Origin: Microbacterium fluvii
Lineage (GTDB): Bacteria; Actinomycetota; Actinomycetes; Actinomycetales; Microbacteriaceae
Length of the DNA stretch: 64,000 bases
Direction: 5' to 3'
NCBI RefSeq assembly: GCF_025515205.1
Contig: NZ_JAOPFX010000001.1
Span: 1,054,001 to 1,118,000 of the forward strand
The notes below the pieces were generated by a model. The model saw only the letters and a program-made list of their open reading frames with translations. It made no database searches and had not been told where the DNA came from. A program made the translations under genes and the position numbers. How positions within the stretch are numbered: the stretch's first letter is position 1; each line of letters starts with the position of its first letter. Shown here piece after piece: positions 45,668 to 53,268 of this stretch.

Positions 45668-47071
45668 GTGACCGCAGGCACGAAGACCACCACACGCACC
45701 GCGAAGGACACCGAGGCGCCCGAAGAGGCGACCGGCACCGCGGCCAAGACCACCGCCCGCAAGCCCGCGGCGAAGTCCGCTGCGAAGACCACGGCCGCCA
45801 AGGCCACGGCGAAGGCTCCGGCGCGCACCGCGAAGCCCAAGGCGACGACCAAGAAGGCCTCCAAGGCGACCGCCGGCGACGACGAACTCGACGACGAGGA
45901 CCTCGGCGACGACGAAGAGCTGAACACCGACGACTTCGGCGACGACGCAGACGACACCGCCCCCAAGAAGAAGGGTGCCGCGAGCAAGGCCGCAGCATCC
46001 GCTTCGGAGGAGGACGGCGACGCCGAGGCGGAGGCCGAGTCCGACGAGGAGGAGGAGACGAAGCCTGCCTTCAGCGAGCCGCTGCCGACCGGCGCGATCG
46101 TCATCACGAGCTCCGACGAAGACGACGTTCCCGTCTACTCGACGCAGATCACCGGCGCGACCGCCGACCCCGTCAAGGACTACCTGAAGCAGATCGGCAA
46201 GGTGCCGCTGCTGAACGCGGCCGAAGAGGTCGAGCTGGCGATGCGCATCGAGGCGGGCCTGTTCGCAGAAGAGAAGCTGTCGAAGATGTCGGCGGCCGAG
46301 AAGTCGTCGCAGCTGGGACTCGACCTGCAGTGGGTCGCCCGCGACGGCCAGCGCGCGAAGAGCCACCTGCTGGGCGCGAACCTGCGTCTGGTCGTCTCGC
46401 TCGCCAAGCGCTATACCGGCCGCGGCATGCAGTTCCTCGATCTCATCCAGGAGGGGAACCTGGGCCTCATCCGTGCCGTCGAGAAGTTCGACTACACGAA
46501 GGGCTTCAAGTTCTCGACGTACGCGACGTGGTGGATCCGTCAGGCCATCACCCGCGCCATGGCCGACCAGGCCCGCACGATCCGCATCCCGGTGCACATG
46601 GTCGAGGTCATCAACAAGCTCGCCCGTGTGCAGCGTCAGATGCTGCAGGACCTGGGCCGAGAGCCCACGCCCGAAGAGCTCAGCCGCGAACTCGACATGA
46701 CGCCCGAGAAGGTCGTCGAGGTGCAGAAGTACGGCCGTGAGCCGATCTCGCTGCACACCCCGCTCGGCGAGGACGGTGACAGCGAGTTCGGCGACCTCAT
46801 CGAAGACACCGAGGCGGTGGTCCCCGCCGACGCGGTGGGCTTCACGATGCTGCAGCGTCAGCTCGAGTCGCTCCTCGACTCGCTCAGCGAGCGCGAGGCG
46901 GGCGTCATCCGCATGCGCTTCGGACTCGGCGACGGTCAGCCCAAGACCCTCGACCAGATCGGCGACACCTTCGGCGTGACGCGTGAGCGCATCCGTCAGA
47001 TCGAGTCGAAGACGATGGCCAAGCTCCGCCACCCGTCGCGGTCGCAGTCGCTGCGGGACTACCTCGAATGA
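45668..47071 (+). CDS. sigA: Primary RNA polymerase sigma factor (SigA/RpoD)
   Basis: The housekeeping sigma factor that directs RNA polymerase to -35/-10 promoters. The 467-residue protein has a long lysine/alanine and then acidic N-terminal extension (residues 1-140), as in actinobacterial SigA/HrdB. Region 1.2 follows ([20 protein letters not shown]), then region 2 with [20 protein letters not shown] (-10 recognition), region 3, and region 4.2 with [21 protein letters not shown] (-35 recognition). GTG 45668 has AAAGG upstream at 6 nt and no competing ATG. Its stop overlaps the next gene by ATGA. Confidence 0.97.
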
Positions 47072-47781
47072 GCGGCGACGGCACCGCCGGCCAGGCCAAC
47101 GCAGGCAAAGCACTCACCGTCACCCTCGAAGGGGCGACGTATGCGCGGATCCCGATCCGCACGCGCGTCGTCATGCCCGGTGACGACCTCGACGCGTTCA
47201 TCCGCGAGTATGCGGTCGATCAGGTGGAGGCGGGCGACCTCCTGTTCGTGACCGAGAAGATCGTCGCGATCACGCAGGGCCGCTCGTTCCCGATCGACTC
47301 GGTGCAGCCGCGCAAGCTCGCCTTCTTCCTATCGAAGTACGTCACCCGCACGCCCTACGGCATCGGGCTGGGCATGCCCGAGACGATGGAGATGGCGCTG
47401 CGCGAGTGCGGGACCCCCCGCATCCTGCTCGCCGCCTCGGTCGCCGCGGTGACGAAGGCCTTCGGCCGCAAGGGCGATTTCTACCGCATCGCCGGCGACA
47501 AGGCGCGCGCGATCGACGGCCCCACCAAGGGCACGATCCCGCCCTACAACAAGGCCGTCGTGCTCGGCCCCGACAAGCCCCGCGAGGTCGCAGAGCGACT
47601 CAAGGCGCTGCTGGGCGTCGACGCCGATGTCGCCGTGGTCGACATCAACGACCTGGGCGGCAACATCCTGGGCTCGACGCTCGACAAGGCGGGCGAGAAG
47701 CGGCTCGTCGCGATCCTGCGCGACAACCCGCTCGGCCAGGGCCACGAGTCGACGCCGCTGGGCATCGTCCGCCCGGCCTGA
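47068..47781 (+). CDS. F420-0:gamma-glutamyl ligase (CofE)-like protein
   Basis: A 237-residue protein of the F420 ligase (CofE-like) family, with the conserved [30 protein letters not shown] and [17 protein letters not shown]. True CofE adds glutamates to coenzyme F420, yet close homologues without F420 genes nearby are common in actinobacteria, and none lies in this window, so the substrate is uncertain. ATG 47068 overlaps the sigA stop (ATGA), tying its expression to the sigma factor. Confidence 0.85.
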
Positions 47782-47788
47782 GAGAAAT

Positions 47789-47832
47789 CACGACGAAGGC
47801 CCGCCCCCCTCGGGGAGCGGGCCTTCGTCGTG
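47789..47832. terminator. Terminator after the sigA operon
   Basis: A 16-bp perfect stem (CACGACGAAGGCCCGC with its complement) around a C-rich/G-rich 12-nt loop that can itself pair. Very stable, with no T-run. It can also stop transcription of the convergent ATP-grasp gene. Confidence 0.85.
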
Positions 47833-47844
47833 GGCGGCGGGGGA

Positions 47845-47924
47845 GTCTCGATACGCCCGCTTCGCGGGCTACTCGACCTTGACCCGAGTCGCATCAACGC
47901 TGCTTCGCAGCATTGATCCGACTC
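47845..47924. repeat. Palindromic intergenic repeats
   Basis: Two elements. 47845-47878 reads GTCTCGATACGCCCGC-TTC, then GCGGGC and ACTCGACC, with the hairpin GCCCGC-TTC-GCGGGC. 47886-47924 is an imperfect palindrome with 18-nt arms (GAGTCGC, ATCAAC, GCTGC on the left) around TTC, with two mismatches. The style (CGATACGCNCGCTTCGCGNGC followed by CTCGACC) resembles interspersed repeats I know from Microbacteriaceae genomes. Confidence 0.6.
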
Positions 47925-47927
47925 GCG

Positions 47928-48950
47928 TCAAAACCCGATCGCGGCGCGGTAGCGGGGCTTGTGGCCGGTGCGGATGCCGGTCACGCTCGGCTTGTTCTCG
48001 TAGACGCCGGCGCCCCAGTTGCCCTCCACCAGAACGGGGCCGTCGGGGGTGACCACGATGTCCCAGCCGACGTAGCGGATCTGCGGCACGACGCGGGCCA
48101 CCGTGTCGACGAAGGCCTTGACCTCGTCGATCATCGGCAGCTGGAAGTCGGCGATGCGGAACCCCGAGTCGGGGTGCACCTCGTGTACGTGGGCGTGCGA
48201 GTCGTAGCCGGGGCCCACGGCGTGTCCGTCGTCGTCGAGCATCGTGTAGAAGCCGCCGAAGGTCATCTGGTCGCTCACCGCGCCGCGGCCGAACTTCTGC
48301 GCCATCGCGAGGATGTGGGTCTGCTCGCCGTCGAAGAACGCGGTCACGCGGGTCGTGTTGACGGTGCCGGGGCAGACGGCGGCGAGATCCGGATGCTGCG
48401 CGATGACCTCTTCGACGAGCATCTCGCCGCGGTCGAGCAGCCCACGGTGGAAGTCGTCCCAGTCGGTCACGTCGGCCGCGTGGTAGCGGTGCACACCCGT
48501 GCCGGCAGAGCCGACCGGCTCCTTCGTGACGATGGTGCCCTGGCGCTCGGTGAACGAGCGAAGCTCGGTGGCGCCTCCCTGCTCGACGACCATCCACTCG
48601 CGCCGCAGGTACGCCGAGAACGTGCGGTCGAAGGCGACCTTGTCTTCGAACAGGTGCCGGTAGGCGGGGTCGTCGTGGCGCTGCGAGATCTGGTTCGACA
48701 CCGGGTGGGTCATGTAGGTGTCGCGCTCGGCGCGGGTGAGGATCGCGAAGTCGTAGTCGACGTAGTCCTGGAACCCGACCTGGTTGAAGCCCGCCTGCCA
48801 GAGCATGTCGACGACGACCGCCGGAGTCCATTTGCCGTGCGCGTGCGCGGTCTCTTTCGCGCGCTCCAGCACTGATCCGACGTCGATGCGCCTGGCACGG
48901 CCGACGAGGTAGCGAAAGCGGGACGAGAGGCCGAGGCCCTGCTGAGACAT
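47928..48950 (-). CDS. ATP-grasp protein (sugar-transfer-associated type)
   Basis: A 340-residue ATP-grasp enzyme. The glycine-rich phosphate loop is TIVTKEPVGSAGTGVHRY and the metal-binding end is VLVEGNWGAGVYENKPS, with the glutamate and asparagine in place. ATP-grasp enzymes join a carboxylate to an amine through an acyl phosphate. This subgroup (sugar-transfer-associated or glutamate-ligase-related) is often found in capsule or cell-wall loci. It is divergent from the racemase-like pair, 45 bp away, which hints at a shared pathway. The substrate is unknown. Confidence 0.8.
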   Translation of the reverse strand: MSQQGLGLSSRFRYLVGRARRIDVGSVLERAKETAHAHGKWTPAVVVDMLWQAGFNQVGFQDYVDYDFAILTRAERDTYMTHPVSNQISQRHDDPAYRHLFEDKVAFDRTFSAYLRREWMVVEQGGATELRSFTERQGTIVTKEPVGSAGTGVHRYHAADVTDWDDFHRGLLDRGEMLVEEVIAQHPDLAAVCPGTVNTTRVTAFFDGEQTHILAMAQKFGRGAVSDQMTFGGFYTMLDDDGHAVGPGYDSHAHVHEVHPDSGFRIADFQLPMIDEVKAFVDTVARVVPQIRYVGWDIVVTPDGPVLVEGNWGAGVYENKPSVTGIRTGHKPRYRAAIGF

Positions 48951-48995: not shown

Positions 48996-49727
48996 GTGAC
49001 GGCGGCGACCCTGGGCGAGCGCGGCGGCGCCCGCAGGAGCGCCCCCCGCGCGATCGTCGACCACTGCGTCCTCGCCGCCAATGCGCGTGCGCTGGTCGGG
49101 GCATCCGCGGCGCCGGTCGCAGCGGATCTGCGCCGTGACGCGTGGGGCCACGGCCTCATCGAGGTGTGGCGCACACTGCGCGCGAGCGGCATCGACGCGT
49201 TCGTCGTCGACGACGACGCGCGCGCGGCCCTGGGCATAGCGGGCGCGGATGCCGGCACCCTTCGCCGCCGGGGCGACACCGCCGAGGCGCCAGCTGCCGC
49301 CGACCTCTACGGTCTGCCCGGCGGCGCCGGCACGCCCGTGCTGCGCCTGCACGGCTCGGTGCTCTCCGTCAAGCCGCTGCGTGTCGGGGAGGGCGTCTCA
49401 TACGGCTACCTGCACCGCGCGGCGGTCGACACCCGCATCGCCCTGGTCGCCGGCGGCTACGCGCAGGGCGTCGTGCGCTCGCTCGGCGGCGCCGTGGGCG
49501 TGCGCATCGGCGGCGAGCGGCGCCCGATCGTCGGCCGTATCGCGATGGACGTGTGCGTCGTCGACCTGGGCGAGACGGCCGCCGCGCGCGGCGACGAGGT
49601 CGTCTTCTTCGGCGACCAGGGGGCGGGGCATCCGCCGCTGGCCGATTGGACGGAAGCAACGGGACTCACGGCGGCCGAGATCGTCACGACGGTGGGGCTG
49701 CGCGCACAGCGGGAGCACGTCTCGTGA
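48996..49727 (+). CDS. Alanine racemase-like protein 1 (lacks PLP lysine; keeps C-domain Tyr)
   Basis: A 243-residue fold type III PLP enzyme relative. The PLP-lysine motif (usually VVKANAYGHG) reads ADLRRDAWGHG, with Arg46 at the lysine position. The barrel is cut to about 110 residues, so the carbamylated lysine, the Arg and the His that hold PLP in canonical enzymes are missing. The C-terminal beta domain is intact: Tyr136 in GEGVSYGYLH matches the catalytic Tyr265 and Met184-Asp185 in VGRIAMDVC match Met312-Asp313 of the Geobacillus enzyme. The start is GTG 48996 (open frame to 48963). It overlaps protein 2 by GTGA. Alone it should be inactive. Confidence 0.9.
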   Translation: MTAATLGERGGARRSAPRAIVDHCVLAANARALVGASAAPVAADLRRDAWGHGLIEVWRTLRASGIDAFVVDDDARAALGIAGADAGTLRRRGDTAEAPAAADLYGLPGGAGTPVLRLHGSVLSVKPLRVGEGVSYGYLHRAAVDTRIALVAGGYAQGVVRSLGGAVGVRIGGERRPIVGRIAMDVCVVDLGETAAARGDEVVFFGDQGAGHPPLADWTEATGLTAAEIVTTVGLRAQREHVS

Positions 49728-50749
49728 GCGGCGTGCTGCGCGTCGACCTCGACGCGTTCGCGGCGAACCTCCGGGAGATCGCGGAGCGGGTGGCGCCGGC
49801 GACCCACATGCTCGTCGTGAAAGACGACGCTTACGCACACGGGATCGAGCCGATCGTGCGGCGTGCCTGGATCGAGGGCGTGCGCTGGTTCGGCGCCTTC
49901 GACGTGCGCACGGGGCTGGCCGTGCGCGAGGTTCTCGGCGACGACGCCCGCATCTTCGTGTGGATCGTCGCGACCGCCGAAGAGGCAGCAGAGGCGGTGG
50001 CCGCCGGCCTCGATGTCGGCGTCGGTGATCCGCTGCTGCTCGAAGACGTCGCTGCCGTCGGTGGAACCGCGCGTGTGCACCTGAAGATCGACACGGGCCT
50101 GCACCGCAACGGCGTGCGACCTGAGGACTGGCCGCAGTTCACGGCTCGGGCGGCAGAGCACGAGGCGGCCGGGGCGATCGAGGTGGTCGGCATCTGGAGC
50201 CACATCGCCGAGGCCTCCGACGCCGAGGACGACGCCTCGCGCGCCGTCTTCGACGAGGCCGTGCACGTCGCCGAAGCCGCCGGGCTGCGTCCGCGACTGC
50301 GGCACCTCGCCGCGAGCGCCGCGTCGTTCGCCTGGCCGGAGTTCCGCTACGACCTCGTGCGGGTCGGGGCCTTCGCCTACGGCATCCGCCCCGCAGACGG
50401 CCCCGCCGAGAGCGAGCTCGGCATCCGCCCCATCGCATCGCTGGTCGCGCCGGTCGAAGGCGTCGCCGACGGCGTGGTGCGGATTGGGCTCGGCAGCCTC
50501 GACGGGCTGCCGTCGACGCTCGCCGGAGTGCTGACCATCGCGACTGAGGGCGGAGTGCGGATGCTGCACGCCGTCGATGCGACGGCGAGCACGGTCGACG
50601 GCTGGCCCGGCGCGACGGCCGGCGACGAGGTCGTCGTGCTCGGTGCGGGAGCTGAGCTCAGTGCGACCGATGCGGCCGAGCGGATCGGGACGATCGGCGA
50701 GGAGATCGCGCTGCGGATCTCGCCGCTCGTGCGCCGCGAGTACCGCTGA
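49724..50749 (+). CDS. Alanine racemase-like protein 2 (keeps PLP lysine; lacks C-domain Tyr)
   Basis: A 341-residue alanine racemase fold protein. The barrel keeps the key residues: PLP lysine Lys33 in VVKDDAYAHG, Lys121 and Arg128 in LKIDTGLHRNG, His160 in WSHIAEAS and Arg213 in YDLVRVGAFAYG. In the C-terminal domain the sequence where VSYG is expected reads VVRIGLG, with Ile254 in place of the catalytic tyrosine, and the MD pair reads VD. It is coupled to protein 1 by a GTGA overlap. The defects of the two proteins are complementary. The substrate (alanine, lysine, ornithine or another) is unknown. Confidence 0.92.
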   Translation: MSGVLRVDLDAFAANLREIAERVAPATHMLVVKDDAYAHGIEPIVRRAWIEGVRWFGAFDVRTGLAVREVLGDDARIFVWIVATAEEAAEAVAAGLDVGVGDPLLLEDVAAVGGTARVHLKIDTGLHRNGVRPEDWPQFTARAAEHEAAGAIEVVGIWSHIAEASDAEDDASRAVFDEAVHVAEAAGLRPRLRHLAASAASFAWPEFRYDLVRVGAFAYGIRPADGPAESELGIRPIASLVAPVEGVADGVVRIGLGSLDGLPSTLAGVLTIATEGGVRMLHAVDATASTVDGWPGATAGDEVVVLGAGAELSATDAAERIGTIGEEIALRISPLVRREYR

Positions 50750-50983: not shown

Positions 50984-51186
50984 CTCGGGTCCTCCTCGTG
51001 CGAATCGTGTGCTCTTCGGTTCCGTTCGGGTCTTCACATACAACCACGCGGATGTTTCGGTCATGCCGCGATCAGGTCACATTTCGCTGAGCGCGTACGT
51101 GTCTGTGCGAACGCCCAGAGTCGGTCCGATCACCGCGCGTGTGTCCTGATCGGGCGTGTCGCAGACCCCGGATACGCTTGGAGATT

Positions 51187-53268
51187 GTGACAGCCGAGTA
51201 CTCCGCCCATCATCTCCAGGTGCTCGAAGGTCTCGAGGCCGTCCGCAAGCGACCCGGCATGTACATCGGCTCGACGGATTCGCGCGGCCTCATGCACTGC
51301 CTGTGGGAGATCATCGACAACTCCGTCGACGAGGCCCTCGCCGGCCACGGCTCGCGCATCGACATCGTGCTGCACGCCGACGGCAGCGTCGAGGTGCGAG
51401 ACCGCGCCCGCGGCATCCCCGTCGACATCGAGCCGCGCACCGGCCTCACCGGCGTCGAGGTCGTCTTCACCAAGCTGCACGCCGGCGGCAAATTCGGCGG
51501 TGGCTCCTACGCGGCCTCCGGCGGACTGCACGGCGTCGGCGCATCGGTGGTCAATGCGCTGTCCGAGCGCCTCGACGTCGAGGTCGACCGCGGCGGCAAG
51601 ACCTGGGCGATGTCGTTCCACCGCGGCGAGCCCGGCACGTTCGCCAACGGCAGCCCCGACTCGACCTTCACGCCGTTCGAGCGCAGCTCCGAGCTGCGGG
51701 TCGCGGGCAAGGCGGCCCGCGGGGCCACGGGCACCCGCATCCGCTATTGGGCCGATCGGCAGATCTTCACGAAGGATGCCGCCTTCGCCCTCGCCGAGCT
51801 GGAGCAGCGCGCTCGGCAGACCGCGTTCCTGGTGCCGGGGCTCGAGATCGTGATCAGGGACGAGCGCTCCGACTCCGAGCGCACCGAGCCGACCGAGACG
51901 AGCTTCCGCTACGACGGCGGCATCTCGGAGTTCGCCGAGTTCCTCGCGCCCGATCCCGCCGTCACCGACACCTGGCGCCTCACCGGCACCGGCAGGTTCA
52001 CCGAGACGGTGCCGGTACTCCAGCCCGGCGGCGCGATGGTCGCCACCGAGGTCGAGCGCGAGTGCCACGTCGACATCGCCGTGCGCTGGGGCACCGGCTA
52101 CGAGACGGTGAACCGCTCGTTCGTCAACATCATCGCCACCCCGAAGGGCGGCACCCATCAGCAGGGCTTCGAGCAGGCGCTCATGAAGGTGCTGCGCGCC
52201 CAGATCGACCAGAACGCGCGAAAGCTCAAGGTCGGCAACGACAAGCTCGAGAAGGACGACCTGCTGGCGGGCCTCACCGCCGTGGTCACCGTGAGTCTTC
52301 CCGAGCCGCAGTTCGAGGGGCAGACCAAAGAAGTGCTGGGTACGCCGGCCGTGCGCTCGATCGTGGCGTCGGTGGTGACCAAGGAGCTCGGCGCGCGGTT
52401 CGCCTCGACCAAGCGCGACGACAAGGCGCAGACCGCGCAGCTGCTGGACAAGGTCGTCTCGGAGATGAAGGCGCGCATCTCGGCGCGCACCCACAAAGAG
52501 ACCCAGCGGCGCAAGAACGCGCTGGAGTCGTCGTCGCTGCCGGCCAAGCTCGTCGACTGCCGCGCGAACGACGTCGACGGCACCGAGCTGTTCATCGTCG
52601 AGGGCGATTCGGCCCTGGGTACCGCCAAGCTCGCCCGCAACAGCGAGTTCCAGGCGCTCCTGCCGATCCGCGGCAAGATCCTCAACGTGCAGAAGGCCTC
52701 GATCAGCGACATGCTCGGCAACGCCGAGTGCGCCTCGATCATCCAGGTGGTGGGCGCCGGCTCGGGTCGCAGCTTCGACCTCGACGCCGCCCGTTACGGC
52801 AAGGTCATCATGATGAGCGACGCCGACGTCGACGGCGCCCACATCCGGACGCTCCTGCTGACGCTCTTCTTCCGCTACATGCGCCCGCTCGTCGAGGCGG
52901 GGCGCGTCTACGCCGCCGTGCCGCCGCTGCACCGCGTGATCGTCATGAACCCGGGCAGCAAGCCGAACGAGACGATCTACACCTACAGCGAGCAGGAGCT
53001 GCATGCGCTGCTGGCCAAGCTCACCAAGTCGGGCAAGCGCTGGCAGGAGCCGATCCAGCGCTACAAGGGCCTCGGCGAGATGGATGCCGAGCAGCTGGCC
53101 ACCACGACGATGGACCGCTCCGGCCGCACCCTCCGACGCGTGCGCCTGGAAGATGCCGAGGCAGCCGCATCCGTCTTCGAGATGCTGATGGGCAACGAGG
53201 TCGCGCCCCGCCGCGAGTTCATCGTGGACTCCAGCGCGCGGCTGAGCCGCGAGCGCATCGACGCCTGA
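51187..53268 (+). CDS. parE: DNA topoisomerase IV subunit B / type II topoisomerase ATPase subunit
   Basis: The ATPase subunit of a type IIA topoisomerase. The 693-residue protein starts with YSAHHLQVLEGLEAVRKRPG and MYIGSTDSRGLMHCLWEIID, then has the ATP-lid motif GGKFGGGSYAASGGLHGVG, the Toprim motif FIVEGDSALGTAK and the metal-binding MMSDADVDGAHIRTLL. The gene lies near parC, so it is named ParE; a second gyrase-type pair normally sits near the replication origin in these organisms. GTG 51187 is preceded by TTGGAG and TACGCT (51173-51178). Confidence 0.93.
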   Translation: MTAEYSAHHLQVLEGLEAVRKRPGMYIGSTDSRGLMHCLWEIIDNSVDEALAGHGSRIDIVLHADGSVEVRDRARGIPVDIEPRTGLTGVEVVFTKLHAGGKFGGGSYAASGGLHGVGASVVNALSERLDVEVDRGGKTWAMSFHRGEPGTFANGSPDSTFTPFERSSELRVAGKAARGATGTRIRYWADRQIFTKDAAFALAELEQRARQTAFLVPGLEIVIRDERSDSERTEPTETSFRYDGGISEFAEFLAPDPAVTDTWRLTGTGRFTETVPVLQPGGAMVATEVERECHVDIAVRWGTGYETVNRSFVNIIATPKGGTHQQGFEQALMKVLRAQIDQNARKLKVGNDKLEKDDLLAGLTAVVTVSLPEPQFEGQTKEVLGTPAVRSIVASVVTKELGARFASTKRDDKAQTAQLLDKVVSEMKARISARTHKETQRRKNALESSSLPAKLVDCRANDVDGTELFIVEGDSALGTAKLARNSEFQALLPIRGKILNVQKASISDMLGNAECASIIQVVGAGSGRSFDLDAARYGKVIMMSDADVDGAHIRTLLLTLFFRYMRPLVEAGRVYAAVPPLHRVIVMNPGSKPNETIYTYSEQELHALLAKLTKSGKRWQEPIQRYKGLGEMDAEQLATTTMDRSGRTLRRVRLEDAEAAASVFEMLMGNEVAPRREFIVDSSARLSRERIDA

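Follow-up and report, generated by a model that had tools for sequence, protein, structure and literature searches.

Alanine racemase (Alr) is a fold type III enzyme composed of the domains PF01168 and PF00842, and it acts as a homodimer with two identical active sites. According to the accessible parts of three published accounts, each site takes its PLP lysine, Tyr43, Arg136, Arg219 and Tyr354 from one chain, and the opposite chain provides Tyr265, Tyr284 and Met312, with Tyr265 and Tyr354 forming a gate that restricts the enzyme to alanine, while lysine-preferring racemases lack Tyr354 (PMC3485190, PMC3245724, PMC4517790). In one Alr, as far as the available sections of the report go, charged residues at the gate position cut alanine racemisation (PMC4517790). 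The lysine racemase Lyr and the broad-specificity racemase Bar resemble the gene pair described here in their Alr fold and in the replacement of Tyr354 (by Thr in Lyr and Ala in Bar); the portion of the source at hand describes them as accepting larger basic substrates, but they are homodimers with a neutral gate, whereas the gate of the pair is Glu or Asp (PMC3485190).

Two further systems offer partial parallels. The PLP-independent 2,4-diaminobutyrate racemase PddB is comparable in the product proposed below, D-DAB, but differs in being weakly DapF-like and cofactor-independent, judging from excerpts of the report (PMC8225329). A heterodimer with a catalytically dead paralogue is represented by Trypanosoma brucei S-adenosylmethionine decarboxylase and its prozyme, which, according to the abstract of that work, relieves autoinhibition (PMC5201418); the partner in the present pair would instead contribute a catalytic base. 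No description of such a pair was found in the open-licence PMC literature, as represented by titles and the openings of abstracts.

The locus lies in a 64,000-nucleotide stretch of the Microbacterium fluvii genome, referred to here as the window. Its two genes share with Alr the fold, the PLP lysine, the opposite tyrosine, the Met-Asp motif, the carbamylatable lysine and the logic of a head-to-tail dimer, but where Alr consists of identical subunits, they encode two unequal chains, each without half a site. The features are listed below, residue counts referring to the family-wide sets introduced in the next section.

48996..49727, + strand: protein 1, putative C-domain donor, 243 aa; a barrel remnant followed by a complete alanine-racemase C-domain
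49724..50749, + strand: protein 2, putative barrel donor, 341 aa; a complete PLP barrel and a C-domain lacking both the Tyr loop and Met312
49724..49727, + strand: GTGA start/stop overlap of the two genes, read from the sequence
49131..49133, + strand: codon for Arg46 of protein 1, at the PLP-lysine position (Arg in 71/83 type I sequences, Lys in 0/100)
49401..49403, + strand: codon for Tyr136 of protein 1, equivalent to Tyr265 of Geobacillus stearothermophilus Alr (kept in 100/100)
49545..49550, + strand: codons for Met184-Asp185 of protein 1, equivalent to Met312-Asp313 (Met in 100/100; Asp in 87 and Asn in 13 of 100)
49820..49822, + strand: codon for Lys33 of protein 2, the PLP lysine (kept in 101/101)
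50105..50107, + strand: codon for Arg128 of protein 2, equivalent to Arg136 (kept in 101/101)
50201..50203, + strand: codon for His160 of protein 2, equivalent to His166 (kept in 101/101)
50360..50362, + strand: codon for Arg213 of protein 2, equivalent to Arg219 (kept in 101/101)
50699..50701, + strand: codon for Glu326 of protein 2, where the substrate gate of Alr has Tyr354 (Glu or Asp in 77/77 pairs with protein 1 first)

A first-pass annotation, made from the letters alone, had proposed that these genes encode an obligate heterodimer with complementary losses. Its gene coordinates and the GTGA overlap are borne out by the sequence, the residues Arg46, Tyr136 and Met184-Asp185 in protein 1 and Lys33, Arg128, His160 and Arg213 in protein 2 are encoded as it claimed, and Lys121 of protein 2, which it also listed, is invariant across a 26-sequence alignment (A1). 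By Pfam, the N-domain of protein 1 is reduced to a weak fragment of 15.5 bits, under the cut-off, next to a full Ala_racemase_C match of 107.3 bits. One reading did not hold: Ile254 had been taken as a replacement for the tyrosine in protein 2, and the Tyr-bearing loop is deleted instead, the column being a gap in 88 of the 101 protein-2-type sequences and occupied by various residues in the other 13.

Neither chain qualifies as a one-chain Alr, for which both PF01168 and PF00842 must be matched in full. Protein 2 combines a full Ala_racemase_N match (171.3 bits) with a partial C-domain (27.8 bits), and the NCBIfam alr equivalog TIGR00492 (cut-off 168 bits) is missed by both proteins, with 109.8 bits for protein 1 and 127.1 bits for protein 2. 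The catalytic hallmarks are divided between them: the PLP lysine is found in protein 2 (Lys33) and not in protein 1 (Arg46), Tyr265 with Met312-Asp313 in protein 1 and not in protein 2, while Tyr354 of the gate is absent, Glu326 standing in its place. Single-chain AF2 models place both proteins in the Alr fold. For protein 1 (pLDDT 90.1, pTM 0.86), VIA-align gave a Z of 24.1 against 6scz_A, with 230 aligned residues and an rmsd of 2.6; protein 2 (pLDDT 95.2, pTM 0.92) matched 1vfh with a Z of 42.6, 340 aligned residues and an rmsd of 1.5. The first-pass annotation had advised a search for a separate complete Alr, and one is present elsewhere in the same genome.

Pairing and complementary conservation in Microbacteriaceae

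A profile built from 26 protein-1 sequences (A2) was searched against 398 Microbacteriaceae genomes, at least 72 of which contain type I matches, defined by a whole profile and a short barrel. Removal of four rows that were sub-hits of full-length Alr (L044, L197, L253, L271) from a total of 104 left 100 unique protein-1-type sequences, 83 of type I and 17 of type II, the latter being encoded in reversed gene order; 101 unique protein-2-type sequences were collected from all fetched loci. At strict cut-offs, no protein-1-type match beyond the window's own genus was detected in a sample of the order (396 genomes, E ≤1e-58) or of the class (394 genomes, E ≤1e-56). These two samples overlap and include members of the family, and cut-offs of this kind could miss divergent cases.

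Conservation in the two sets is complementary. Among protein-1-type sequences (n=100), Tyr136, Arg161 and Met184 are present in all, Tyr155 in 94 (Phe in 6), Arg181 in 90 and Asp185 in 87 (Asn in 13), and lysine never occurs at the PLP position. In protein-2-type sequences, the Alr positions Lys39, Tyr43, Lys129, Arg136, His166 and Arg219 are each retained in 101 of 101. The absence of Tyr265 and Met312 from the latter is no test, since the class was defined by it.

The two halves also occur together. In all 94 complete and unique cases, the partner of protein 1 belongs to the protein-2 class, the remaining six partners being duplicates or cut at a contig end. A protein-2 barrel is encoded in the next open reading frame for 89 of the 100 protein-1 genes and in the same frame for 11, and no protein 1 stands alone. 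Pairing of the orthologues, a check that the first-pass annotation had named, is thus met by 100 of 100 protein-1-type sequences, and a recurrence of this extent rules out chance or artefact. Seven protein-2 loci had no counted protein 1: three carry a full-length dead copy, in three protein 1 was overlooked by the filter (L039, L174, L252), and in one, from a metagenome-assembled genome with a run of N (L042), it is split over two frames and was left uncorrected; a 100-base region, L195, did not enter the analysis. A 4-base overlap (ATGA or GTGA) joins the genes in 67 of 76 type I pairs, which fits the earlier remark that the GTGA overlap would suit equal synthesis of two subunits.

These data point to an asymmetric heterodimer with the alanine-racemase fold and one composite active site. 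Such an arrangement is judged highly probable from the sequences, although the physical complex and its activity are inferred, without a complex model or an assay. Protein 2 would supply the PLP barrel with Lys33, Tyr37, Lys121, Arg128, His160 and Arg213 as well as the entry gate Glu326, and the C-domain of protein 1 would supply the opposite catalytic base Tyr136 together with Tyr155, Arg161, Arg181, Met184 and Asp185. The dimer's other site would be dead, because protein 1 lacks a PLP barrel and protein 2 lacks the Tyr loop. Neither homodimer would contain a complete site. The central proposal of the first-pass annotation, an obligate heterodimer, consequently draws support from pairing and conservation, as well as from the fusions, the genomes without a canonical Alr and the selection described below, with the complex itself remaining an inference.

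Type II pairs and genomes without a canonical Alr

Seven genomes of g78 (99-100% complete) have as their sole Ala_racemase_C matches two proteins 1 and two proteins 2, arranged as one pair of type I and another with the gene order reversed (type II). In three other genomes (G309, G234, G365) and in Gulosibacter sp. 10, a type II fusion is accompanied by nothing but a type I pair or fusion, and the sole Ala_racemase_C protein found in G389 and G136 is a type II fusion. Altogether, no canonical Alr was found in 13 genomes, whose pairs and fusions are their only Ala_racemase_C proteins. Four further g74 genomes (G274, G188, G073, G339) possess an additional divergent full-length racemase.

The Ala_racemase_C search missed a Corynebacterium glutamicum control genome, despite the presence of an Alr of this species in the PDB (2dy3), and it was for this reason repeated with Ala_racemase_N, which detects the control. 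In the 13 genomes, every barrel of at least 157 bits found in this way is a member of a pair or fusion; the other Ala_racemase_N proteins reach at most 72 bits, and their identity was not assigned. No D-amino-acid transaminase above the family cut-off was found in these 13 genomes, and sub-cut-off aminotransferase matches occur in 11 of them. D-alanine is essential in nearly all walled bacteria. If this applies to the 13 genomes, some of the asymmetric enzymes there must be active, and the pair architecture would be the only evident source of D-alanine, as far as gene content can indicate.

Gate residue, neighbouring genes and the proposed reaction

The gate position distinguishes the two types. 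The residue at Tyr354 is Glu or Asp in all 77 pairs with protein 1 first and Tyr in 16 of 17 pairs with protein 2 first, the seventeenth being unaligned, with the motif TINYE; the gate residue follows gene order. Acidity at this position suggests that the substrate is basic. The effect of charged residues there in one Alr fits a non-alanine substrate, but could also mean low activity. Protein 2 also contains Arg128-Asn129, the Arg-Asn pair of the Lyr and Bar type at Arg136-Leu137, but the same pair is present in the canonical Alr of its own genome.

The surroundings of the pair are conserved as well, and in the window they comprise the following genes.

45668..47071, + strand: presumably an RpoD-type sigma factor, named from its sequence; left syntenic anchor
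47068..47781, + strand: CofE-like protein (PF01996, 43.5 bits), in the slot occupied by murT-gatD in other genera
47928..48950, - strand: divergent ATP-grasp protein (PF14397), a candidate peptidoglycan amino-acid ligase, adjoining the pair in several genera
51139..53268, + strand: GyrB/ParE-type topoisomerase subunit, right syntenic anchor

The Gulosibacter orthologue of the last gene has the DNA_gyraseB, Toprim and HATPase_c domains. Genes of the rpoD and gyrB/parE types flank 22 of the 23 type I loci with long flanks, and at the other one (L275) only the parE side was seen. The slot beside the pair was assessed at 83 type I loci: murT and/or gatD occupy it at 53 and CofE-like and/or ATP-grasp genes at 23, the two sets never occur together, and at 7 neither lies within the fetched stretch. 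Of 10 MurT-like neighbours, all exceed the cut-off for Mur_ligase_M and 8 exceed that for MurT_C, and NCBIfam at E 1e-30 provided no name for any of these 10; GATase_3 is above its cut-off in 5 of 6 GatD-like neighbours, the sixth scoring 26.9 against 27 bits. MurT-GatD amidates the alpha-carboxyl of D-Glu, which is the branch point of type-B peptidoglycan. A strict partnership between the ATP-grasp gene and the pair is not supported, as G355 has the former without the latter; the pair occurs without ATP-grasp in G106, G296 and G328.

In Gulosibacter sp. 10, the pair and the ATP-grasp gene are followed by an oppositely oriented gene for a diaminobutyrate transaminase (TIGR02407, 588.7 bits, cut-off 552.2). 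The models that fit it best are those of ectoine-type (EctB) enzymes, and such a gene adjoins the pair at one of 23 long-flank type I loci. Weak matches to the transaminase query at L039, L040, L286 and L291 probably reflect antisense frames in a long upstream extension of the query, and were not counted. The walls of Gulosibacter contain DAB or D-ornithine, according to the part of the description that could be consulted (PMC6113628). Two type I pairs are also present in Microbacterium sufflavum, and the sequence fetched around each of them includes an ATP-grasp gene; D-ornithine is reported for the walls of this species in the accessible text of another study (PMC10757982).

The acidic gate, the murT-gatD/CofE/ATP-grasp context and the walls of Gulosibacter and M. 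sufflavum together led to the proposal that type I pairs provide D-ornithine or D-DAB. L-ornithine or L-2,4-diaminobutyrate would be racemised, yielding the D-diamino acid found in the bridge of type-B peptidoglycan, and the CofE-like and ATP-grasp neighbours would attach it to D-Glu. This product is somewhat favoured, with the reservation that it rests on gene context and a single gate residue, without any assay. If correct, it would point to candidate genes both for this D-diamino acid and for the bridge itself, type-B peptidoglycan being one of the main traits used in Microbacteriaceae taxonomy.

That type I could instead be a second alanine (or serine) racemase is doubtful, but it cannot be dismissed, as the pair belongs to the same family as Alr and its substrate was not measured. 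Against this idea stand the acidic residue in every pair with protein 1 first, opposed to tyrosine in nearly all pairs of the other order, and the diaminobutyrate transaminase adjoining the pair in Gulosibacter. Basic amino-acid decarboxylases also belong to fold type III, and the acidic gate suggests a basic substrate, so that a heterodimer with one PLP site might catalyse decarboxylation or the epimerisation of a bound amino acid. Such a reaction is quite improbable, because both bases of two-base racemisation, the lysine and the opposite tyrosine, are strictly kept, one per chain, and the same architecture is the only evident D-alanine source where a canonical Alr is missing.

Protein 2 might also be active by itself, forming a homodimer that uses a different base, with protein 1 as a mere regulatory or stabilising pseudo-subunit, and the confident fold of protein 2 as a nearly complete racemase is compatible with such a role. 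This is very unlikely, since the Tyr loop and Met312 absent from protein 2 are retained by protein 1 in 100 of 100 sequences, and the entry arginines Arg161 and Arg181 are kept there (100/100 and 90/100); a purely structural partner would not need the tyrosine, the methionine or these arginines. Selection bears on the last alternative. Median dN/dS is 0.20 for protein 1 (56 pairs) and 0.18 for protein 2 (94) in type I, 0.13 and 0.16 in type II (25 each) and 0.24 in canonical Alr (28), all from pairs with 72-98.5% protein identity and dS < 1.5, and both genes are under purifying selection. The notion of a decaying duplicated alr, to which a complete Alr elsewhere in the genome and the loss of most of the protein 1 barrel might point, is rejected by these ratios and is barely conceivable given the occurrence of the pair in at least 72 of 398 family genomes, its conserved synteny and the lack of any protein 1 without a barrel partner.

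The best overall explanation is an obligate one-site heterodimer of tandem origin that likely racemises ornithine or DAB, to which a probability of roughly 0.8 is assigned; the complex, its activity and its substrate are all inferred. If this is true, a textbook symmetric enzyme and drug target exists naturally as an obligate asymmetric dimer with one site.

Origins, intermediates and fusions

The barrel tree unites type I protein 2 with the acidic tandem copies described below in a single clade (SH-aLRT 99) and places type II protein 2 among canonical Alr (SH-aLRT 92). A single origin of all protein-2 types, with I and II in one clade, was rejected (AU p 0.002). Type I alone as one clade was not rejected (AU p 0.22), so no further origins are claimed within it. 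The tree of C-domains places type I protein 1 beside the first tandem copy, weakly supported (90). Type II protein 1 of g78 branches away from type I protein 1, and the type II proteins 1 of g78 and g74 are apart, again weakly supported. The trees and the AU tests together indicate at least two origins of asymmetric pairs. The most likely course inferred from these trees is that two complete racemases in tandem gave rise to the pair, their halves decaying in complementary ways; this is plausible, not proven.

A broader reading joins these observations, and the case for it is evenly balanced. In this reading, asymmetric racemases with one site arose at least twice in Microbacteriaceae from the symmetric alanine racemase, cells of g78, parts of g74 and Gulosibacter would have no alanine racemase other than the type II pair or fusion, and type I would be the missing D-Orn/D-DAB racemase for type-B peptidoglycan. 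The pair would sit in a D-Glu-modification locus with interchangeable MurT-GatD and CofE-like/ATP-grasp sets, a position that would make its neighbours builders of the type-B bridge.

If the heterodimer is real, with its two or more origins, the family would provide a clear case of complementary degeneration of paralogues, whose living intermediates would include complete tandem pairs, full-length dead barrels, truncated partners and fusions. In g12, g5, G369 and Curtobacterium, full-length copies stand in tandem with PLP lysine, Tyr and Met all retained, and the second copy in each has an acidic gate, which means that such a gate does not require heterodimerisation. Lys129 is absent from the tandem copies of g5 and Curtobacterium.

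Under INTERMEDIATES and fusions, three g58 genomes (G126, G268, G227) keep a full-length protein-1 barrel. These barrels are dead, the PLP lysine being replaced by Asp and Lys129, Arg136 and His166 being lost, and their partners have no Tyr loop. In the C-domain tree the dead-barrel proteins adjoin truncated Microbacterium proteins (SH-aLRT 98). The locus in G126 (L289), the only one of the three viewed with long flanks, has the same synteny, and a fourth g58 genome, G057 (L187), has a truncated protein 1. Single-ORF fusions number eleven across ten genomes and occur in both domain orders, with protein 1, a linker and protein 2 at L163 and protein 2 followed by protein 1 at L191, L192 and L240-L247.

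The slot beside the type I pair

Next to the type I pair, in which a C-domain donor gene precedes a barrel donor gene, the window carries two further genes:

47068-47781, forward strand, CofE-like gene (PF01996)
47928-48950, reverse strand, divergent ATP-grasp gene (PF14397)

The slot they occupy (47068-48950) is that of murT-gatD in other genera, and also in some Microbacterium (loci L042, L043). Across the 83 type I loci with a counted protein-1-type sequence, murT-gatD was in no case found together with the CofE-like/ATP-grasp set.

Microbacterium sufflavum has two type I pairs (L254, L255), with an ATP-grasp paralogue in each stretch. In Gulosibacter sp. 10 (L049:7082-9858), ATP-grasp and diaminobutyrate-2-oxoglutarate transaminase genes directly adjoin the pair.

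Full-length racemases with altered sites

Tandem full-length alr genes occur in genus g12, genome G369 (g78) and Curtobacterium (L196-L198, L201, L253, L044), the second copy having an acidic residue at the Tyr354 position (alanine racemase numbering). In Neoactinobaculum massilliense two full-length alr genes lie side by side (L106:4673-7104), and in each of them Gly takes the place of the carbamylated lysine.

Some genomes of g74 and a single one of g56 (L248-L251, L270) encode divergent full-length racemases that carry Ser or Ala for Lys129, Asn for Asp313 and Ala for Tyr354. Additional full-length Alr-like copies in Microbacteriaceae (L256, L257, L263, L265, L267, L268, L273) have His at both the Lys129 and Tyr354 positions, and are possibly racemases for another amino acid.
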